DNA of 40,578 nucleotides from an uncultured Veillonellaceae bacterium (GTDB taxonomy: Bacteria > Bacillota > Negativicutes > Selenomonadales > Selenomonadaceae). The DNA lies in the NCBI GenBank assembly GCA_902766015.1, contig CACXCC010000097.1:1-40578 (forward strand), written 5' to 3'. The position numbers and the translations under genes are program-made. Under the pieces are notes generated by a model. It was not told the DNA's origin. It worked only from the letters and a program-made list of their open reading frames with translations, and did not search any database. The first letter of the stretch is position 1; each line of letters starts with the position of its first letter. Below, in pieces: positions 1-11,649 of this stretch.

Positions 1-342
1 GCCGCTGCTGTGATCCGCATGTGTCATCCGGACTCTTCCGAACGGCAGCTTCACCGAACCGCCGATGTTCATCGGATACGATTTGATGTCGCCGACGCGT
101 TCCTGACAAAGCGCGAGAACTTCCGGGATGGCCACGATCGCCGCACCCGTACGTTTCGCGATTTCCGGCGCGTCACCGAGATGATCGCCGTGTGCGTGGG
201 AAACGAGAATGTAGTCGCATTCCGCTTCGTCAGCTGCGATTGACGCCTTTGGATTTCCCGTCAGGAACGGATCAAAGAGCACTTTATATTGACCGTCATC
301 GAGCAGGAAGCAGGAATGACCGTAATATGAAAACTGGACCAC
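1..342 (-). CDS. UPF0173-type metal-dependent hydrolase (MBL fold), N-terminal part
   Basis: This is the first 114 codons of a gene that runs off the left edge of the window. The protein starts VVQFSYYGHSCFLLDDG and reaches the metallo-beta-lactamase signature HAHGDHLGD at about residues 52-60, which supplies metal ligands. The 'YYGHSCFLL' opening followed by 'FDPFLTGNP' is typical of the UPF0173 (YtkL-like) branch of the metallo-hydrolases, whose substrate is not established. I chose the GTG at 342-340 because AGGAG lies about 9 bases before it; an in-frame TTG at 351-349 sits too close to that ribosome binding site. It lies downstream of the c-di-GMP genes in the same direction. The family assignment is firm; the function is unknown. 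Confidence 0.85.
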   Translation of the reverse strand, partial: MVQFSYYGHSCFLLDDGQYKVLFDPFLTGNPKASIAADEAECDYILVSHAHGDHLGDAPEIAKRTGAAIVAIPEVLALCQERVGDIKSYPMNIGGSVKLPFGRVRMTHADHSSG

Positions 343-415
343 ACTAAACAACTCCTTTGCATGCTGTTCCCTGTATTTATCTTTCCCTGTAATACGATAA
401 AAACCCTATATAGTT

Positions 416-445
416 ATCATAGCACATCGGAGCTTGTTTTAGAAG
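416..445 (-). promoter_or_regulatory. Possible promoter for the UPF0173 hydrolase
   Basis: On the minus strand an extended -10 (TGC-TATGAT, hexamer at 416-421) stands about 75 bases before the GTG start. At 17 bases spacing there is only a weak -35 (TTCTAA), overlapping the end of the preceding gene. No terminator hairpin is visible between the two genes, so read-through from upstream is also possible. Confidence 0.35.
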
Positions 446-3400
446 GTTTTGTGTTCCAGCATCATATTTTCGGCGCGGATAATCATTTCACCGATATCCT
501 CCGTATCGGCATACCAGGCTGAACCGATCGCAAAATAGAGCGTGACCGGTGTGTCTTTGTCAACACGGCGGATCTGTTTCAGTGCTAAACTGATTCGATT
601 TTGTACATCGGTCAGCATAAGTGCCGTCGGGCAATGCATCAATATTCCGAAGCGGCTTCCGAACATGCGGGCAAGGGCAAATCCCTCGGGAATTGTATTT
701 TTCAGCGTTTCGGCAACAATCTGCATGAGCTGTACATACATTTCTCTTCCGTACGCCGCACGGAATTTTCTCAAGTCAAGAAGCTGCAGCGTGACAAAGC
801 AGAAATTTTCTTTTTCCCGTTCATATTGACGTGCTTCCTGTTCACAGGCTGCCGCAAGGCCGTGCAGGTTCATCAGCCCCGTCATCGAATCGGTGTTATC
901 CTTCGTTTTATAAGCGGAAACGAGATCGGCCACATTCGTGACGTCAACAAAATAACCGGCTAATCCGACAATTTTACCGTGGTCGTAAACGGGAGCCTTT
1001 GACGCCATGATTTTGCGGACTTTCCCGCGTACGAGGCATTCACCGACCGCTTCCGTGATCATGGCGCCTTCGCGGAGCACCCGTTCCTCATCCCGCTTGA
1101 ACGGTTCCGGATCCGGATGCCAGCCCATATCTTCGTCATTTTTTCCTAAAATGTCACCGAGCGTCAAATTGTAATAATGCAGGAAGGTTTCGTTGGCACC
1201 GACAAAACGACGCTGACTGTCTTTCCAAAACATCCCGAGACGTTTCTGCGTCGTGAACGCCCGCCAAAGGGCATCGGGGCGCGGTACACCGTCCGATTTA
1301 TAGCCGTCCGCGATATCATCAGGTGGATTTTCCTGTTCAAATGTCCGTTCTAAACGTACATCATCCCAGCCCGCGAGATTGCGGCTGACGGTAACAAGAT
1401 AACGCCTCGTATCATCCGCATCGGTAATTTCCGTGATCACAGCACGACGCCAATGGTAACTGCCGTCATCTTCGCCCATATGGAAAAAGGCATTCAGGAT
1501 CCGTTCCGGTGTTCCCGCCAACCGTACATGGAGTGTTTTCGGGTCCAATAGGCGACAAAACCGTTCACGTTCCGACGGATGAATGTACTGATCGGCATAA
1601 AGCGCAATTGCCCGCTTTGCCGTGAGTCCTTCGTATTTTTGGGCGTCTCTAAGCCGCCCGTACCAATGGACAAACCGGTCTTCATCGGGATAGATTTCTC
1701 CGACCCGCCAAAAAACGGAATAAATATCCTGCATGACAGCCAAGCGTGCCTGCGGCGTGTGGAAATGATATTCGAGTTCGATCAAACGGACATAAAAAGC
1801 ACGCTGACCCAAATACTCCGTAATAAACTCGACGGACATTCTGCCTGTGATATTGTGAAATACGAAATCGTACCCGGCCGGACGCTTGGAAATGACAGCC
1901 GAATCGGCCAAATTCTTCAACGTCGCATCCAGTTTCTCATCATTGGTGATGCGGTTTGGCGCGATGTTTTCCCACGGTCCCGCACAGACTTCCTCCAAAA
2001 ACTTGCGGAACTTCGCCGTCGTATAAAGGAAGCGGCTGTGTTCCCGGTCGAGTTTCATAATTGCCGTCGGCAATTCGCGATCCGAAGCCGTATTACCGAT
2101 CGGGTTGGCGAAATCAAGCACATTGACCTTGCCGATCCGACGGTAAAAAACACGCTCCCGGCTTGTTTCAACACCGGCTTTGACCAAAGCGGTATTTTCC
2201 TTCAATCGTTCGATAGTGTCCGGCTTCGAGAAAAAATAACCCTGTGTTAAAAAGCAACCGATGCTCTTCAAAAAGTCAAACTGTTCCTGCGTCTCGACGC
2301 CTTCGGTGAGTGTCAACATGCCGAGACGCTTTGCCATGTCAACGATACTGCGTATCATCAGATGCGTGCGGTAATTTTCGCGCCGCAAGAACTGCATGTC
2401 GATTTTAATGCAGTCAAAATCGTAATTTTGCAGCGTATTAAGCGAGGAATACCCGCTTCCAAAATCATCGAGCCATACCTCAAAGCCGTCGTTATGAAAC
2501 GCACGGATGTGATCGTTGACCGCCTCTTCGTCCGAAAAGATGACCGACTCGGTGATTTCCAGATGAATCAGATTGTGGGGAATACCGTATTGCTGCAATA
2601 TGGCATTGACCCGTTCATGCAGGTCCGGCAGATTCAGATCGTGACGGGAAAGGTTAATGGAAACGGGAATCGGCACATTATCCTCATTCCACCGCTGCCG
2701 CATAGTACGGCAGGCCGTTTCCAAAACGTAAAGATCGACTTTATAGAGAAGATGCGCATTTTCCAGCACAGGAATAAACTGGCCCGGCGTCAAAAAACCG
2801 TTGACAGGATCGTCCCAGCGTGACAATGCCTCCATCGCGGCAATCCGCCCCGAAAACGTTTCGACAATCGGCTGGTAAAAAACCTTGATCCATCCTTTTG
2901 TGATAGCCTCGTCGACGTGGGAAATCAGATACGATTCCAGTTTCAGGGCATTTTCCATCTCTACCGTATAACGTCCGCAATAAGCGTAGGCGTTCTCGCG
3001 AACATTTTCCGCCGCAAGCCTTGCGCGGTCCATCGCGACTTTGCTGTCTTTTTCCTCACCGGTCAATGTATAAATACCGGCGAAAATCTCGGCGCTGTTC
3101 CGCCCGTGGTGCTTCATTCGCTCGTGAAGGACATGTATTGTTTGCTCCGCCCTGCTGTCTTCAACGAGCGCATAGAAATTATCGGCATATATGCGTGCGA
3201 CAGAATCGGAACCGATAACGTTTTGAATCTCCTCGCCGAATTGACGCAGCAACTCATTGCCTGCGAGAAAACCGTTCTGATTGTTAAAAACCTTAAAATG
3301 ACGGATGTCAAAACTGATGACGGCCCACGCCACATTGTCCTGTCCGTTGTTTAACGCCGAAATACGCTCGGCAAGCGTGCGTTCAAAGACGAAAGCAGTG

Positions 3401-3477
3401 CAAAGTCCCGTGACCGGATCGACATTCGGTATACAGTCAACCGGTAACGTGTCATTGTTTGTATCAGTGTATTTCAT
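439..3477 (-). CDS. GGDEF/EAL/PAS protein, probable c-di-GMP phosphodiesterase (1012 aa)
   Basis: Domains in order: a degenerate GGDEF (about 20-165, with YADNF at 97-101 in place of GGDEF), an EAL domain (about 185-430), an accessory region with a PAS-like fold (about 445-700), a PAS domain (about 735-850), and a second degenerate GGDEF (about 860-1012, MFGSRF at the signature site). The EAL domain keeps the expected motifs: EAL at 216-218, NLSR at 275-278, EITES at 307-311, DDFGSGYSSL at 337-346, KID at 358-360, EGVE at 392-395 and QGYFFSKP at 412-419. I infer that it hydrolyses c-di-GMP and does not make it. There are no membrane segments, so it is probably cytosolic. The start ATG has AGAGG 8 bases or so upstream, and it lies 39 bases after the 1697-aa gene, so the two are probably cotranscribed. 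The signals sensed are unknown. Confidence 0.85.
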   Translation of the reverse strand: MKYTDTNNDTLPVDCIPNVDPVTGLCTAFVFERTLAERISALNNGQDNVAWAVISFDIRHFKVFNNQNGFLAGNELLRQFGEEIQNVIGSDSVARIYADNFYALVEDSRAEQTIHVLHERMKHHGRNSAEIFAGIYTLTGEEKDSKVAMDRARLAAENVRENAYAYCGRYTVEMENALKLESYLISHVDEAITKGWIKVFYQPIVETFSGRIAAMEALSRWDDPVNGFLTPGQFIPVLENAHLLYKVDLYVLETACRTMRQRWNEDNVPIPVSINLSRHDLNLPDLHERVNAILQQYGIPHNLIHLEITESVIFSDEEAVNDHIRAFHNDGFEVWLDDFGSGYSSLNTLQNYDFDCIKIDMQFLRRENYRTHLMIRSIVDMAKRLGMLTLTEGVETQEQFDFLKSIGCFLTQGYFFSKPDTIERLKENTALVKAGVETSRERVFYRRIGKVNVLDFANPIGNTASDRELPTAIMKLDREHSRFLYTTAKFRKFLEEVCAGPWENIAPNRITNDEKLDATLKNLADSAVISKRPAGYDFVFHNITGRMSVEFITEYLGQRAFYVRLIELEYHFHTPQARLAVMQDIYSVFWRVGEIYPDEDRFVHWYGRLRDAQKYEGLTAKRAIALYADQYIHPSERERFCRLLDPKTLHVRLAGTPERILNAFFHMGEDDGSYHWRRAVITEITDADDTRRYLVTVSRNLAGWDDVRLERTFEQENPPDDIADGYKSDGVPRPDALWRAFTTQKRLGMFWKDSQRRFVGANETFLHYYNLTLGDILGKNDEDMGWHPDPEPFKRDEERVLREGAMITEAVGECLVRGKVRKIMASKAPVYDHGKIVGLAGYFVDVTNVADLVSAYKTKDNTDSMTGLMNLHGLAAACEQEARQYEREKENFCFVTLQLLDLRKFRAAYGREMYVQLMQIVAETLKNTIPEGFALARMFGSRFGILMHCPTALMLTDVQNRISLALKQIRRVDKDTPVTLYFAIGSAWYADTEDIGEMIIRAENMMLEHKTF

Positions 3478-3516
3478 CTTTTAGTACCTCTGAAGCTTGG
3501 TTAACTGAGTCGAAAA

Positions 3517-6500
3517 TTACTGTTTTGCTGCATCAATCGGCGGAGTTGTGATCGGACAGGTCAGATATAAATACTGCCGATCTCTGCCCTGAACCTTGAT
3601 AATCACATGTTTACGCCAAGAATAGCCGCCGTTGTCATCATGCGTACGAAATGCCTCGGCGTAGGCATAGGAGTCCTTCATATGGGCAATAATTGCCGGT
3701 TCATTGTTGAACGCCAGATAGCGTTCCCAGTCCTCGGGCGCAATGATTTCCTTGTAGCCTTCGCTGAGCCATCCGGAAAGCGTAAAGTCCGTTGTCGCCG
3801 TGCGCTGCGAAGCCCGGTTGTCAATAATGGTATGAACGCTGTCGTCGTTCCAATCTGTCACCCCCGCATAAACGTATGCCTGATACAGATTGCGGATAAG
3901 AGCGTCCATTTTACTCTGTCGAGTGACGGGAGCTTCGGGGGTCAGCATTTCCACGGTAAAATCGAACAGGGCGCGGCCGCCGACTCTCCCGATAAACGTT
4001 GACTCCAGATGTAAATAGCCGTAGTCGGATACAAGATAGGCACTTTGCGGTTTCCCGTTTTTTTCTGCCGCTTCCATTGCCGAAAATGACGACTTCGTTT
4101 TTGCCGTTAACGGGAAACGCCGTCCGTAAACCGGTTCATCCGGTGTCAATTCGCCGATTTGTACGATTTCCTTCCGATAGTCATCACGCAAATACCGGAA
4201 AATCAGCCAGTTCTGTTCCTTTTCCACGATCGCGAGCGATTTATCGCGCTGGAAATCGAGATGTCCCGCCTTGGCGTAAAGAAGACTGTACTTACGCTCT
4301 TCGACCCCGATATTCTGCTCTTCCATATGACAGATGAGTTCGTCATACGGCTGGGGTTTGCCGAAATACCACCCCTGAATCTTTTCACAGCCGATATCGC
4401 GCAGGAATTCGTATTTTTCCCTCGTGTCAACGCCTTCGGCCACGGTCTCGAGGCCGATACCCTTGACCATGCGGACGAGGTCCGAGATGATCTTGCGTGA
4501 TTTTTCCGTCAGCGTCGAGAAAAACTTCATGTCAAGTTTTGTCTCATCAAAATCGAAATCCTTGAGCAGATTCAATGACGAATAACCGCTGCCGAAATCG
4601 TCCATCCAAACCTGGAATCCGACTGCGCGCAGGCGGTTGATATCTTTTTGGATGCGTTCCGCTTCCGTTGCTGCCATCGATTCCGTGATCTCAATACGGA
4701 TCATGTCATGCGGGATATCATAGGACTTAACGGTTTCGATGACATAAGATACAATATCGCCCTCGAGGAAGTCAAACCGTGACAGATTGAACGAAACGGG
4801 AACGACCGGTTTGCCGGCGGCAAGGCGTTCCTTATGTTCCTCACAGACGGCGCGCAGCATGTACTTATCAAGTTTTTGAATCTGCTGCGAGCGCTCAAGT
4901 GCCGTGATAAACTGTCCCGGATTCAGGAAACCGTGTTCCGGGTCAATCCAACGCGCAAGTGCCTCGGCACTGCAAAGCTCATGATTAATGACGCGGATGA
5001 CCGGTTGATAATAAACCTTGATCCAACGTTTTGCGATCGCTTCGTCGATATGCGAAGCAACATAATTTTCGAGTTCCAGCTTTTCGACGAGCTTATGGTC
5101 ATAATACGCCGTGTCTTTGCCGGGATTGCCGTAAATGTTCCGGCAGGCAGCTGCGGCGTTACTCATACAAACACCCGCGTGGGTTTCTTCTTTCGGAATT
5201 TCATAGATACCGGCATCGATAACAAGATCTTCGTAGCCGCGCACATCGGCTAAGCTCTTACGAACAGCCGTCAAGTTTTCTTCGATACCGTCGACTTTTG
5301 TGAACACACAGAACGAATCGACCGGCTGACGCGTGAGAATCGCATCGGGGAAAGCTTTATGCAGTTCCTCCGCAATCCGCCGCAGAAGTTCGTCGCCCGC
5401 GGCAAGGCCGAAGCGTTCATTATATATACGGAATGACTCGATATTCAAAAAAACAACGGCGCGTTTTTCGTAAACCTTGCGGGAACGGTTATCACGGATC
5501 AAAGAGGAAAGCTGTTCCGTAAATTGGTTCTGACTGATAAGTCCCGTCAGACTGTCGGTAACTTTTCGTTCCTCTTTGATTTCCTGCAACATGCAGAAAA
5601 CGAGCGGTCCCTGATCGGAATCGACGCGAACAGCGGAAGTCCGCGCCCAACGAAGGCCTCCGGTTTTGGGCATAATGCGGAAACTGACGTCATAATATTC
5701 CCCGTCGTTACCACGGAGTCCACGCATCATGGCTGACCATGCAGGGATACGATCATCCGAATAAATGACACGATAAACCGTTCCGTGCAAATAGTTCATC
5801 AGGTCGTCAACCGTGTCACATCCCCAAAGTTGCGCCGTTTTCCGATTGGCATAGAGGATCTCATACGGTTCATCGAGACGGTAAATCAACAGAGCACACG
5901 GCATTTGATCGAAATCCTCGATCTGAATATCTGTACCGCCGTTATAGAGACGTTCGGCTTTCCGGATTTTACCGAGATCTTTGACCTGTTTTACATCGCG
6001 GAATTTATAGCCGACAACGAGGTACGCTTTTTTGTCTTTTTGCACGGAAACAAGCTGCGCCTTCATGGTGATGCAAATATCCGGTACGTATACCTCATAA
6101 CGGGAAATATCACCGATTCGATTCAGCGGGCGGACAAATTCCCGGATTTCCCGGTATGTCCTTGTCGATTCGTCGTTGATGAGCTCTTCCAGACCGGTCC
6201 GGTCGTATCGTCCCTGCTTTTTCTCCCAGATGCGGGCTGCTTCGTTTTCATAGATAATATGAACCCGATCGTTCTCTACCACGATCAGGAAAACCGTTTG
6301 CCGTTCCTGAATCGGGCGGAACCCGGCACCGATATGATTCGAGGTGACATTTAACACGTTAACGCGATGCAGCGGCCGGTAAAACTCCGCATCTTCGGGC
6401 TTTTGGAGCTGCATCGGTTTTTTCTCGGGGCCGATGAGGAACGGGCCTTCTTTCGGCAGCGGCGGGGAAACCCAGTCGCCCTGGATGATCATACAGCCGG

Positions 6501-8610
6501 CTAAGCGCAATACTTCGACCTGCTGGGCAGTTTCGACGCCTTCCATGAGCGGCAGGATTCCGATCCGCTTGCACGCGTCAATGACAGCCGACAAAACGAC
6601 ATGTGTTTTACGACCGACGTTTTGGAGCAGGCTCCGATCCAATTTCAATATGTCAAATTCGATATTTTCTACGAGGGATAAGGGAATGCCGTCATTGCCG
6701 AAATTATCAAGAATAACGGTATAGCCGTCTTGACGGAAACGACGGATATGATCGGAGGCGTTATCCGACAATGCCGCACCGCTGAATTCAAAGCCGATAT
6801 ACTGCGGTGTCAGTCCGTATGACTTGACAATCGCGTTGATTTTCTCATGGATACCGGGGTAAGAGATGTCACTTCGCGTCAAATTCAAATGACACGGGAC
6901 CGTGGCACCGCCCTTTGCCCGGACTTCGGCAAGATCCCGGCAAACGAGATCGAGCATGTACAAATCGAGTCGATAGGCTAAATTCGATTCTTCGAGGATC
7001 GGCACAAATTCCTCGGGAAGGAGCACGCCGCGTTCCGGATCTTTCCAACGGGCCAGGGCTTCAAAGCTGATGACTTTGTTGTTAAAGAGTCCCAAATTCG
7101 GCTGATAGTACGGTTCAATCCAATGCGATGAGATCGCCCGGTTGATATTGGTAAGAATATAATCCTTGTTGTCGACAAAATGGCGTACATTTTCATCGTA
7201 AAAATGGACGCAGTTCGTACGGTCAAGGTCATAATAATTCTTCGTGCGGCGCGCCCGATCCAATGCCGTTATGGCATCAAACGGCTGTGTGACGAAATAA
7301 ACGCCGACGCGGAATCCCGCGGCAAACCCATTTGACCAGCGGTTGATTTCTTCATTGAGCTGATTGATCGCCTGACGAATCTCTTCCCGATTCTTTGTAG
7401 TCAAAATGACAAACCGGTCCTCTGTATGGCGGATAATCGGGCAATCCGGGAACAACTTCTGCAGAATTTTGGCCGATTGCTGTAACAGACGGTCGCCTTC
7501 TTCAAACCCGTACTGTTCATTGTAAGCATGAGTACCGTAGGCGTCGGCATAAATGACGGCAGGAACGCTCCCGTTTGCATGGTCTCTCAGCCATTTATCA
7601 CCGGTTGCCCGATAATATGCGGCATTCGGCAGTTCGGTGAGTTCATCGATAAACTCGGGGAGAAGATCTACATCCCCGTTACGTGCGCTTCCTTCGATGC
7701 CGTTGCGGCCGTTCTTTTTAACAACATAGAGATTTCGATCGGCCGTTTCCTGCATTTCTTGCAGGTCTTCGATCGTATCGGGAATCCCGTGGACATAGCC
7801 GCAGGAAATATGTATCGGAAATACGCGCTCAAAGACATGAACGTTTTCCAGTTTCCGGCGCAATACCTCATCTTTGCGACGGATATCATAATCGGACACA
7901 TAGCTCCCGATGACGAGGAATTCGTCACCGCCGATCCGGTAGCAATGACCTGCTCCGTAAATGCGTCGGATGCGTTCGGTGACCGTTGTCAGGACGACGT
8001 CGCCGCTGGCATGGCCGTACGAGTCATTAAATACTTTAAAATAATCGACGTCAATGATCATAACGAAAATATGCTTATGCAGCAGGTATTGTTCGTCAAC
8101 GGCAAGGCCGCGTCGATTTCGCAGTGACGTCAAAGGATCCCGGAAGGTCTCCTCTTTCAGGCGCATTTCGTTTTCCCGCATCGGCGTGATGTCAAAGAAA
8201 AAACCGACAAGTCCCGTAATCTCACCGTTTTCCCGAATCGGAGCCTCGGAATACAGACAGTGCTTGCGTTCGCCGCGGATTTCGACATCCTGTGTCCCAC
8301 GGATCGGTTCTCCGTCGGCAAGGAGTTTTTTCTCCTGCTCATGCAGTTCTTTCGGATGACTAACGGTCTTTAATTCTTCGGCGGTACGTCCCAAGAGTTT
8401 TTTGAGCGACAGTCCGTAGAAAGAAAGGAACGTCGAGTTTGCGCCCCGGTAACGCAGATCCTTGTCTTTCCAATACATGCAAACGGCAGTACCGTTCATA
8501 ACGGATTGCACGAGCGCTGCTCCTTTTTCGTGATTGAAATAGGATGTCAGTTCGTTATAAAACAACTGCATTGCTTTATTTTGTTCTTTTTGATTGCCGG
8601 CCATGTCCAT
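3517..8610 (-). CDS. Giant multi-module PAS/GGDEF/EAL c-di-GMP protein (1697 aa)
   Basis: Order seen: PAS (about 35-145); GGDEF 1, intact (RIGGDEF at 225-231, no RxxD inhibitory site before it); GGDEF 2, degenerate (TEDRF at 396-400); EAL 1, damaged (EAL at 517-519 kept, but the ITE-type motif reads FEFSG at 607-611 and DDFG reads DNFG at 635-638); accessory region (about 745-880); PAS (about 900-1010); GGDEF 3, degenerate (PVDSF at 1096-1100); EAL 2, intact (EAL 1216-1218, NLSR 1275-1278, EITES 1307-1311, DDFGSGYSSL 1337-1346, EGVD 1392-1395); and a C-terminal PAS-like tail. I infer one cyclase and one phosphodiesterase in a single chain. The first ATG overlaps the stop of the upstream GGDEF gene as TAATG. 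An ATG two codons later (8604) is better spaced from AGGAAGG (9 versus 3 bases), so the true start is probably 8604. Confidence 0.88.
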   Translation of the reverse strand: MDMAGNQKEQNKAMQLFYNELTSYFNHEKGAALVQSVMNGTAVCMYWKDKDLRYRGANSTFLSFYGLSLKKLLGRTAEELKTVSHPKELHEQEKKLLADGEPIRGTQDVEIRGERKHCLYSEAPIRENGEITGLVGFFFDITPMRENEMRLKEETFRDPLTSLRNRRGLAVDEQYLLHKHIFVMIIDVDYFKVFNDSYGHASGDVVLTTVTERIRRIYGAGHCYRIGGDEFLVIGSYVSDYDIRRKDEVLRRKLENVHVFERVFPIHISCGYVHGIPDTIEDLQEMQETADRNLYVVKKNGRNGIEGSARNGDVDLLPEFIDELTELPNAAYYRATGDKWLRDHANGSVPAVIYADAYGTHAYNEQYGFEEGDRLLQQSAKILQKLFPDCPIIRHTEDRFVILTTKNREEIRQAINQLNEEINRWSNGFAAGFRVGVYFVTQPFDAITALDRARRTKNYYDLDRTNCVHFYDENVRHFVDNKDYILTNINRAISSHWIEPYYQPNLGLFNNKVISFEALARWKDPERGVLLPEEFVPILEESNLAYRLDLYMLDLVCRDLAEVRAKGGATVPCHLNLTRSDISYPGIHEKINAIVKSYGLTPQYIGFEFSGAALSDNASDHIRRFRQDGYTVILDNFGNDGIPLSLVENIEFDILKLDRSLLQNVGRKTHVVLSAVIDACKRIGILPLMEGVETAQQVEVLRLAGCMIIQGDWVSPPLPKEGPFLIGPEKKPMQLQKPEDAEFYRPLHRVNVLNVTSNHIGAGFRPIQERQTVFLIVVENDRVHIIYENEAARIWEKKQGRYDRTGLEELINDESTRTYREIREFVRPLNRIGDISRYEVYVPDICITMKAQLVSVQKDKKAYLVVGYKFRDVKQVKDLGKIRKAERLYNGGTDIQIEDFDQMPCALLIYRLDEPYEILYANRKTAQLWGCDTVDDLMNYLHGTVYRVIYSDDRIPAWSAMMRGLRGNDGEYYDVSFRIMPKTGGLRWARTSAVRVDSDQGPLVFCMLQEIKEERKVTDSLTGLISQNQFTEQLSSLIRDNRSRKVYEKRAVVFLNIESFRIYNERFGLAAGDELLRRIAEELHKAFPDAILTRQPVDSFCVFTKVDGIEENLTAVRKSLADVRGYEDLVIDAGIYEIPKEETHAGVCMSNAAAACRNIYGNPGKDTAYYDHKLVEKLELENYVASHIDEAIAKRWIKVYYQPVIRVINHELCSAEALARWIDPEHGFLNPGQFITALERSQQIQKLDKYMLRAVCEEHKERLAAGKPVVPVSFNLSRFDFLEGDIVSYVIETVKSYDIPHDMIRIEITESMAATEAERIQKDINRLRAVGFQVWMDDFGSGYSSLNLLKDFDFDETKLDMKFFSTLTEKSRKIISDLVRMVKGIGLETVAEGVDTREKYEFLRDIGCEKIQGWYFGKPQPYDELICHMEEQNIGVEERKYSLLYAKAGHLDFQRDKSLAIVEKEQNWLIFRYLRDDYRKEIVQIGELTPDEPVYGRRFPLTAKTKSSFSAMEAAEKNGKPQSAYLVSDYGYLHLESTFIGRVGGRALFDFTVEMLTPEAPVTRQSKMDALIRNLYQAYVYAGVTDWNDDSVHTIIDNRASQRTATTDFTLSGWLSEGYKEIIAPEDWERYLAFNNEPAIIAHMKDSYAYAEAFRTHDDNGGYSWRKHVIIKVQGRDRQYLYLTCPITTPPIDAAKQ

Positions 8611-9584
8611 TACCCTTCCTGATGTTCGTAATCTAACGGGATTTCCGTAATAAAGCTCATATCTCCGTAGTATTCGTTGTGATGAAAACGGCTCAGAAAT
8701 AAGACGTTCTTTAAACGTCCGTGTTTGTCGCGAATGCGGAGGAACAACCGATTATTCCCATACGGGTCGATTTTCGCGAAATCCTCTTCATAGACGAGAG
8801 ATGTCGGATTTTCCGAAGCATACGCAAGCAGTTCTTTCAGCGAGTCAAACCCGTGCAGTTTTACGGCAGCCTGATTGGCAAAAAGCAGTTTGCGCTTTCC
8901 TTCCGTAACGTTCATGATCAGGAGTCCGCCCGGCATATAAAGGTCAAAATCTTTGAGGGCAAAGCCGAGCTGACTGCGTTCTTCCTCATCGCGTTCCGAA
9001 TTATAGCATTCGACGCCGTTGCGTCCGTTCAGCTTGACCGTATAGAGCGCTTTATCCGCCATACGCGTCATTTCGCGGCGGGATCCCGGCCCGGCGGAAT
9101 AACCGATCGAAACGGTAAACGGTAACGTTCTCTCTTCACTCACGAACGGTGATACCTGCCCCGCGAATGCACGCAGTGTTTCATCGGCTTGTTCCTCCGT
9201 AACGTACTTGAGAAGCAGGATAAACTCGTCGCCGCCGTTGCGTCCGAGAATGGCCTGTTCACCGAAAAACGCCTCCATGTTCCGGGAAAGGTAAATCAGA
9301 ATGCGGTCTCCGAACGGATGTCCGAACCGGTCGTTGATCTGTTTGAAATTGTCAATATCGAGAAGGGCGATAGCTGCAAAACTGTTGAGATGTTCCGTCA
9401 TCCAGCGGTCGACGTTATCGTCAAATCCGCGGCGGTTGTACAGTCCTGTGAGTGTATCCGTCAATGCCTGACGCTCGAGATGTTCCCGGCTTTCCCGGCC
9501 TTCATACAGGATAATCGCCACCCGGACGAACCCCGTTACGAGAATGACAAACAGGAAACTTAAAAGGGCGAATTTTCCGGCCAT
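8610..9584 (-). CDS. Membrane GGDEF diguanylate cyclase with C-terminal PAS domain, probably N-terminally truncated
   Basis: A single hydrophobic segment (about residues 4-27) is followed by the usual linker into GGDEF (LTDTLTGLYNRRGF at 41-54; intact RNGGDEF at 115-121) and then a PAS-like domain (about 212-315). Cyclase activity is likely: the signature and the DIDNFKQIND motif are complete, and I see no RxxD inhibitory site. The ATG at 9584 has no ribosome binding site. The frame stays open upstream to a TAA at 9626-9624, and those 13 codons (TGTVYITYNVEKP) look like the end of an extracytoplasmic sensor domain leading into the membrane helix. I therefore suspect that a first helix and a periplasmic sensor are missing. 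Its stop overlaps the start of the 1697-aa gene (TAATG), which suggests translational coupling. Confidence 0.8.
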   Translation of the reverse strand: MAGKFALLSFLFVILVTGFVRVAIILYEGRESREHLERQALTDTLTGLYNRRGFDDNVDRWMTEHLNSFAAIALLDIDNFKQINDRFGHPFGDRILIYLSRNMEAFFGEQAILGRNGGDEFILLLKYVTEEQADETLRAFAGQVSPFVSEERTLPFTVSIGYSAGPGSRREMTRMADKALYTVKLNGRNGVECYNSERDEEERSQLGFALKDFDLYMPGGLLIMNVTEGKRKLLFANQAAVKLHGFDSLKELLAYASENPTSLVYEEDFAKIDPYGNNRLFLRIRDKHGRLKNVLFLSRFHHNEYYGDMSFITEIPLDYEHQEG

Positions 9585-9726
9585 CGGTTTTTCTACATTA
9601 TAGGTAATATAGACAGTCCCCGTTTACACACCGCGTGACAATACGTCAAATCAGCCGGTTCGGACCGTCCCCGCGCATGACGTTCCGGGCTATACCCCGG
9701 CTCCGCAGAACGAACCCGCGCCGACT
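9585..9726. other. Suspected deletion or assembly junction between two 5'-truncated divergent genes
   Basis: The plus-strand frame of the deacetylase is open from 9613 to its first usable codon at 9727 and already encodes the Pro-rich repeat (for example RTVPAHDVPGYTP), but this stretch has no ATG, GTG or TTG in frame. The minus-strand frame of the GGDEF gene is open from 9584 up to 9623. Neither gene has a Shine-Dalgarno sequence. Only about 30 bases separate the two coding stretches, too little for the missing signal peptide or sensor domain. The minus strand contains TATAAT at 9597-9602 without a convincing -35. Confidence 0.6.
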
Positions 9727-11649
9727 GTGAGCAAGCCGGCCGAAACCGTTCCCGCCCGCGATATTCCGGACTATAAGCCGGTTCAGACCGCTCCTGCTTC
9801 TTCCGTCCCCGACTATAAGCCGGTCAAAATGACGCCGATTGCAGAGGATTCGGCACCGAAACAAACCGTCCCTGCTTCGTCCGTCCCGTCGTATGAGCCG
9901 TCCGGACAAACGACGACAACGAGTCGGCAAAACAATACATCCGCATCAACGTCAACGACCGTCAAAAAGCCCGCCGTGACAAAAGGTCCGCGTATCAGCG
10001 CCGCCGATCAGGCACGCTACGAATCCCTGCGTCAGGCCAATCAGGGGCAACAGGCGCCGAAAGAGCGTTTCATTACGACAACGGCACAGAATATCATCGT
10101 CACGTTCGGCGGCCTGACGAAAAAAGCCCCTGTCGAAGATATCCTGAACCGCCTTGATGCCTACCGGACGAAAGCTACGTTCTTCGTCACGGAGCTTGAA
10201 CTGCAGCGTTACGGTTCTACGGTGCGCGAAATCGTCAACCGCGGCCACGAACTCGGTCTCGGACTGCGAACCGGTGAAAACGGTACATACCTTGACACCT
10301 GCGCTCAGATCGACCGCCTGCAGAAACGCATGCTGAAAGATTACGGCGTCAAACCGGTCATCGCGCGTCAGGTTTTCGGCAAGGAAACGCCGGAAGTCAA
10401 TGAAGCCTGCTCTGCGATGGGCATCCGTCTTTTCGGTCAGACCATTAATGCCGTACAGACAAAAAATAAAGAAGCCGTCAATGCCGAGGATATTTTCTCC
10501 GGCATGTTCGGCAAATCCATCCGCTCCATGGGGCGCGGACAGATCATCTACATGCGTCTCGACTTCCTGACGCATCCGATGCTCACGGGTCAGGTCCTCG
10601 ATCTCATCAAACGCAACAAGATCGACAACAACGCGTACCGCACCTTCGGCGACTCGCCGGAACTCAATGTCGCCAACGACTCAGCGTATCATCTCGCGAG
10701 TATCGGGCAGGTATTGGCGGATCCGAGTAAACTCTGGACCTATCCGGTTTCCACAGACGTTCTCCCCTACAGTCTGCGGCCGGGCATCGTTACCGTCAAC
10801 GATGCGGATAAAAATCTCGATCGCGACATGAAGAAATATTACATCGGCTCGCCGCTCGTCAACGATCTGGACCGCGTCAAAGGATTCAACAACGCGCAAC
10901 GCCGCCAACTCGATCAGGAAGGTGTGATCAAGACGGTCGCCGACAACACGATTTTCTTCACATTCGACGACTGGAGCACCGACTATTCCCTCAACCATCT
11001 GCTCTACGTCCTGCGCAAACATCACGTACCGGGCAATTTCTTCATCATCACATGGAATGTCAAGAACAATCCGAACCTGCTGCGCGCGATCGCCGAGGAC
11101 GGACATGTCATCGGCAGTCATACGAACCGTCACAGTCCGATGGTCGATCAGGGCGGTTACATGAAGTCGATGGACAAAGAAGATTATGCCGCTGACGTCA
11201 AACAGTCCTATGAAGAACTCGCGAAAACGATCGGCGATGTCACGTATCAGGGACAGCCTGTCCTCACGCGTTACATGCGCCCGCCGACACTTGCGATCAG
11301 CAAACAGGGGATAAAATCCATCTTTGACGCCGGTTTTACCTACATCGTCTCCGGCTCGGAAAGTGTCGATGACTACAACGCCGGTTCCATGCAAGCCGTT
11401 GTCGGTGCGATCCAGCACGGCATTTACGACGCGAAAGGCAATGTCCGGCGCGGATCCATCCTCGTCATGCATATGACCGACGCCGCAAAGTACACGGCCG
11501 AGGCGCTTGACATCATCCTCACGGAAAACGAAAAACGCGCCGACGATGATCCGAAAAAATTCAAAGTCGGACGACTCTCCGACTACCTTATCGACGGCTA
11601 CGATCAGAGCATAGAGCAGGTTCCGCCGCTCGTAAAGCCGCGTTCTTAA
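9727..11649 (+). CDS. Polysaccharide deacetylase family protein with two NodB-like domains, 5' end missing
   Basis: As read from GTG 9727 the protein has 640 residues: Pro-rich repeats (about 1-60, recurring 'VPDYKP'), a Thr/Ser-rich linker, a degenerate NodB-like domain (about 115-300, VTFGG at the site of the TFDDG motif), a spacer, and a second NodB domain (about 400-600). The second domain keeps TFDD at 412-415, HTNRH at 465-469, RPP at 518-520 and a late LVMH (His582), so it is probably an active, metal-dependent deacetylase acting on a cell-surface or wall glycan. Export would be expected, yet there is no signal peptide. The repeat continues in frame upstream of the GTG without a start codon, and no ribosome binding site precedes it. 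I therefore treat the gene as truncated at its 5' end. It may not be expressed. Confidence 0.75.
   Translation: MSKPAETVPARDIPDYKPVQTAPASSVPDYKPVKMTPIAEDSAPKQTVPASSVPSYEPSGQTTTTSRQNNTSASTSTTVKKPAVTKGPRISAADQARYESLRQANQGQQAPKERFITTTAQNIIVTFGGLTKKAPVEDILNRLDAYRTKATFFVTELELQRYGSTVREIVNRGHELGLGLRTGENGTYLDTCAQIDRLQKRMLKDYGVKPVIARQVFGKETPEVNEACSAMGIRLFGQTINAVQTKNKEAVNAEDIFSGMFGKSIRSMGRGQIIYMRLDFLTHPMLTGQVLDLIKRNKIDNNAYRTFGDSPELNVANDSAYHLASIGQVLADPSKLWTYPVSTDVLPYSLRPGIVTVNDADKNLDRDMKKYYIGSPLVNDLDRVKGFNNAQRRQLDQEGVIKTVADNTIFFTFDDWSTDYSLNHLLYVLRKHHVPGNFFIITWNVKNNPNLLRAIAEDGHVIGSHTNRHSPMVDQGGYMKSMDKEDYAADVKQSYEELAKTIGDVTYQGQPVLTRYMRPPTLAISKQGIKSIFDAGFTYIVSGSESVDDYNAGSMQAVVGAIQHGIYDAKGNVRRGSILVMHMTDAAKYTAEALDIILTENEKRADDDPKKFKVGRLSDYLIDGYDQSIEQVPPLVKPRS

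Follow-up and report, generated by a model that had tools for sequence, protein, structure and literature searches.

A putative deletion scar at the junction of two divergent genes lacking their 5' ends, a diguanylate cyclase gene and a polysaccharide deacetylase gene, in an uncultured Veillonellaceae bacterium

The genome of an uncultured Veillonellaceae bacterium carries a point at which two divergent genes, one for a GGDEF-PAS diguanylate cyclase and the other for a polysaccharide deacetylase, both lack their 5' ends. As judged from the nucleotide sequence and its homologues, both genes are genuinely truncated in this sequence, and the site where the two frames meet (9613-9623) is probably the scar of a recent deletion in the DNA of the organism; we give this reading a probability of about 0.6. 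The stretch of DNA analysed, referred to here as the window, is a whole contig of 40,578 bases (C97) that belongs to a 2.04 Mb assembly of 144 contigs, estimated to be 91% complete. The features relevant to this work are listed in Table 1.

Table 1. Coordinates of the frames, repeats and junction in the window
Feature	Positions	Strand	Remarks
GGDEF-PAS frame, 324 aa from the first ATG	8610..9584	-	One transmembrane helix; first helix and sensor missing
Outward in-frame extension without start codon, TGTVYITYNVEKP	9585..9623	-	Where the sensor of homologues ends; putative sensor assignment
PAS/GGDEF/EAL multi-domain protein, 1697 aa, intact	3517..8610	-	Next gene, same strand
GGDEF-EAL-PAS protein, 1012 aa, intact	439..3477	-	Third gene of the block
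Polysaccharide deacetylase frame, 640 aa	9727..11649	+	First in-frame start GTG; PF01522; no signal peptide
Upstream in-frame part without start codon	9613..9726	+	Pro-rich repeats VPxYxP, cut mid-repeat
Four copies of a 39-nt protein-coding repeat (9661, 9742, 9784, 9862)	9661..9900	+	Repeat comparison
Likeliest junction	9605..9625		Frame limits; single-copy; outer bounds about 9590-9661

The limits of the two frames define the junction. In the plus strand the last stop codon in the frame of the deacetylase is the TAG at 9610-9612, and the frame is open from 9613 to the stop at 11649; in the minus strand the frame of the cyclase remains open to 9623, that is, 39 bases (13 codons) past its first ATG at 9584, for a total of 337 aa. 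Both open frames therefore overlap by 11 bases, in good agreement with the first-pass annotation, which had described two frames without 5' ends that meet within about 10-40 bases. The first in-frame ATG, GTG or TTG of the deacetylase is the GTG at 9727; no Shine-Dalgarno match was found for it, although most of the other window genes checked have one, and none precedes the ATG at 9584. Since a copy of the repeat (9661-9699) that matches the three later copies lies ahead of this first possible start, the coding sequence must reach upstream of GTG 9727, and the earlier description of a Pro-rich repeat that continues in frame to about 9613 with neither start codon nor ribosome binding site proved correct. 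A search of the region 9450-9850 found no promoter-like site. The absence of Shine-Dalgarno sequences at the two starts, the repeat upstream of 9727, the overlapping frames and the lack of a promoter-like site between the genes together confirm the original observation.

The GGDEF domain of the leftward frame scores 115 bits (Pfam cut-off, 23.8), its RNGGDEF motif is intact, and the protein carries a C-terminal PAS-like domain. Among the 189 genomes of the same family used for comparison, we found 25 further GGDEF-PAS matches (E <= 1e-38, in 20 other genomes), whose frames range from 538 to 1719 aa, nearly all of at least 589 aa, versus 337 in the window. In the homologues inspected, a periplasmic sensor lies between two helices, and the second of these aligns with the helix that directly follows ATG 9584; in the homologue from Mitsuokella the sensor matches Pfam CHASE. 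Given that the longer homologues inspected possess both elements, the proposal that the cyclase has lost its first helix and its sensor was borne out. The sensor expected between the two helices is missing from the window frame, and a sensor profile, run without a positive control, found nothing in the whole assembly. It had also been suggested that the frame out to 9623 encodes the end of a sensor domain. The extent of the frame is as described; regarding the sensor, alignments with the homologues begin no earlier than about residues 12-22 of the extended frame, and their conserved sensor end corresponds to VYITYNVEKP in the window by position and with weak resemblance.

The deacetylase domain (PF01522, 106 bits against a cut-off of 23.1) retains the catalytic motifs TFDDW, SHTN..H and RPP, as expected for a NodB-type enzyme (TFDD, SHTxxH, RPP), and follows a Pro-rich linker of about 150 residues. 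As an observation in its own right, the VPxYxP linker encoded by 9613-9960 is unusual. It is longer than that of the Dialister relative described below and has another sequence; linkers that are long and variable are also present in Acidaminococcaceae-type relatives (L263, L267, L272 and L273). Neither a signal peptide nor a membrane segment was found in the deacetylase frame, in which the maximum 12-residue mean hydropathy is 0.05, so the missing signal peptide noted in the first-pass annotation is confirmed. In contrast, among the 79 loci from public genomes that were compared, of which 78 allowed the measurement of N-terminal hydropathy, 72 have, ahead of the core, an N-terminal segment whose 12-residue mean exceeds 1.9; the others resemble weaker signal peptides or contig edges. 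Homologues starting at the same residues as the window frames had been named as the finding that would speak against truncation; we looked for them and truncation stands, as no close homologue of the cyclase is as short and the homologues of the deacetylase have the N-terminal hydrophobic segment that the window frame lacks.

The closest deacetylase found is that of Dialister sp. UBA7295 (57% identity), with the same domain and the same catalytic motifs. Of 164 sites conserved without change in eight relatives, the window protein differs at 26, and so does the intact Dialister protein, 16 of the changes being common to both. Decay is apparent in neither the deacetylase nor the cyclase frame. 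Since the number of changes at conserved sites equals that of an intact gene, the event must be either very recent or artificial; a long-standing pseudogene was considered and rejected, given that the changed sites are matched, and mostly shared, by the Dialister gene.

The deacetylase gene of the relatives, rather than facing a cyclase, is part of a co-directional operon that encodes a PilZ-domain glycosyltransferase synthase (NodC/PgaC-like), a PgaB-like protein, a GH18-like lipoprotein and the deacetylase, the third and second of these being weakly similar to GH18 and PgaB, respectively. In Dialister sp. UBA7295 the four genes are intact and co-directional, and the deacetylase includes its signal peptide. 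A co-directional synthase is present within the same locus in more than 70 of the 79 loci. Two layouts are found in Negativicutes and Clostridia (L239-L317): the deacetylase is last in Selenomonas, Megasphaera and Dialister, or first in Sporomusa, Pectinatus and Butyrivibrio, where the protein is often longer and includes an additional deacetylase-like part at its N-terminus. In the operon of Dialister sp. UBA7295 and of Selenomonas-type genomes, which ends with the deacetylase, the leading genes encode a nucleotide-sugar dehydrogenase and an outer-membrane-like protein; in Sporomusa, Butyrivibrio and others the deacetylase precedes the synthase. The synthase was detected in 32 of the 189 family genomes, all 32 of which also carry the deacetylase; at the threshold used it is lacking in the remaining 157, thus absence of the system is common. 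Only the window genome and one other (G187) have the deacetylase without the synthase. The linkage is not universal, since in G013 the deacetylase is located apart from the synthase.

The synthase of the relatives falls below the model cut-offs (NodC, 169 of 550 bits; PgaC_IcaA, 106 of 422 bits), and their PgaB-like proteins score 27-36 bits with PgaB, far below the cut-off; hence a pgaABCD (PNAG) operon, understood as PgaC/IcaA and PgaB above the family cut-offs, was not recognized in them. A literature search for this type of operon retrieved related systems and no description of it. It is widespread in Negativicutes and Clostridia, with an almost perfect co-occurrence of synthase and deacetylase.

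Unlike Dialister sp. UBA7295 and the other relatives, which are complete, with a signal peptide and with the synthase, PgaB-like and lipoprotein genes upstream, the window locus has none of these co-directional genes, and the divergent GGDEF gene occupies the upstream position. An initial scan of the contigs of the genome with the window protein alone gave no match. The synthase and the lipoprotein are absent from the whole assembly, in searches with three positive control genomes each, which gave strong matches. Local searches covered 100 contigs (~1.13 Mb, ~56% of the genome); in this part, the PgaB-like gene gave only weak matches at the level of paralogues, and no matches were noted for the nucleotide-sugar dehydrogenase and the outer-membrane-like gene. 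The comparison with related loci recommended in the first-pass annotation revealed an operon whose other genes are missing upstream of the deacetylase here; a cyclase adjoining the operon was seen in no relative, and the closest cyclase homologue in Mitsuokella is on another contig. Considering that the operon is conserved in the relatives and that its synthase and lipoprotein are absent here, the most plausible content of the gap is the part of the operon upstream of the deacetylase together with the 5' ends of both genes.

A comparable arrangement was found in G187, a member of the same family (genus g3) whose genome is 99% complete in 8 contigs and has no synthase. Its deacetylase (C7:272538-273593) lacks the N-terminus, with a break that corresponds to codon ~222 of the relative, and at about position 1505 of the locus (L236) it faces the 3' end of a gene on the opposite strand, an 85-aa fragment with no family match and without its 5' end. 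The DNA identity with a relative of the genus, 85.6%, ends abruptly at the break. As in the window, a deacetylase without N-terminus, in a genome without synthase, is head to head with a gene lacking its 5' end; nonetheless, the break is deeper in the deacetylase and the partner is not a cyclase, so that the event is an independent one.

From these data we propose that, before the deletion, a diguanylate cyclase with a periplasmic, probably CHASE-type sensor would have been transcribed leftward, and an operon formed by the synthase, the PgaB-like protein, the GH18-like lipoprotein and, last, the deacetylase would have been transcribed rightward from this position. Through the deletion the cyclase would have lost its sensor half, the deacetylase its signal peptide, and the operon all genes ahead of the deacetylase, amounting to at least about 5-6 kb, or 7-9 kb if the usual leading genes of the operon were also included. 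The remaining deacetylase, for which neither a promoter nor a ribosome site nor an export signal is recognisable and which has no partner synthase left, would be a pseudogene; the cyclase, if transcribed at all, would be at most a sensorless protein with a single helix starting at 9584, and the synthase that c-di-GMP would drive would be gone. The genes at 3517-8610 and 439-3477 may also have lost their upstream promoter through the deletion. It seems quite improbable that the deletion was kept by selection, with the sensor-free cyclase acting as a constitutive source of c-di-GMP, its output rewired to other targets in a cell no longer able to make the polymer, and that deletions ending inside the deacetylase recur across the family (here and in G187).

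An error of assembly, the other alternative correctly raised at the outset together with a real deletion, would have joined non-adjacent places or skipped DNA, leaving the missing segment unassembled or outside the bin. We regard it as unlikely, yet as the most serious competitor. Because the genome is a draft in 144 contigs and 91% complete, the operon might exist in the organism without having been assembled or binned; in addition, both frames are otherwise undamaged, the divergence of the deacetylase does not exceed that of an intact relative, and the two genes are side by side in no relative. However, displaced synthase and lipoprotein genes would be expected in the assembly about nine times in ten and were found nowhere, and the same kind of junction is present in the 8-contig assembly of G187; these two facts make a real deletion more likely than a misjoin, but they are no proof of it. 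The junction is single-copy within the assembly, so there is no visible repeat to explain a collapse of the graph, and a repeat-driven collapse was rejected. A chimera with a foreign left arm is likewise unsupported, given that the composition of 1-9610 falls inside the range of its genome, an argument that is not decisive.

A larger rearrangement is highly improbable. An inversion or a translocation with a breakpoint in both genes would have left their 5' pieces elsewhere in the genome, and an inversion also yields a breakpoint inside two opposed genes; nevertheless, no sensor, synthase or lipoprotein was found elsewhere in the assembly, the sensor profile having been run without a positive control and the local searches having covered about 56% of the genome. 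Finally, both genes could be naturally short, starting at 9584 and 9727 with nothing missing, since translation from the ATG that precedes the second helix would produce a one-helix cyclase, and from GTG 9727 a 640-aa protein. This idea is hardly tenable and was rejected on the basis of the starts, the repeats and the lengths of the homologues: neither start has a Shine-Dalgarno sequence, no promoter-like site was found, a coding repeat precedes 9727, the signal peptide is missing where the deacetylase homologues have one, and no close cyclase homologue is equally short.

Comparable layouts and losses are documented in other bacteria. In Escherichia coli the diguanylate cyclase gene ycdT is divergent from the c-di-GMP-controlled operon pgaABCD, and in strain 55989 the cyclase gene beside this operon is broken (PMC4287979). 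This divergent layout is the one that we propose for the window before the deletion, where the cyclase is broken too. There are differences: the operon of the relatives has a PilZ-fused NodC/PgaC-like synthase and weak similarity to PgaB, it also encodes a GH18-like lipoprotein as a protein of its own and an additional deacetylase, and the adjacency of cyclase and operon is seen in no intact relative. In Salmonella, pgaABCD was lost before the diversification of the genus (PMC5464674), similarly a case in which a whole synthase-dependent exopolysaccharide operon disappeared from one lineage; in contrast, here a scar is readable, with the last gene and the 3' part of its neighbour, in one draft genome. 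In a survey of synthase-dependent operons the loss of the locus was the commonest change (PMC7112194). In view of the Salmonella case and this survey, the process is ordinary and of a known kind, and the window adds a new, clearly marked example. If real, the deletion would show an exopolysaccharide system, probably under c-di-GMP control, being lost at a stage when both edges are still readable, with G187 as a second independent case in the family; a matrix defect would be predicted in this species.

The neighbourhood of the cyclase deserves a comment. The whole genome has eight GGDEF matches, six of which fall in the three-gene block at 439-9584; hence c-di-GMP turnover seems to be concentrated there. 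In Mitsuokella multacida (L287) an EAL domain (10816-11529) is encoded just downstream of the deacetylase of an intact operon, and it is 47% identical to that of the gene at 439-3477 in the window; this likeness is an independent hint that the c-di-GMP block and the operon may belong together.
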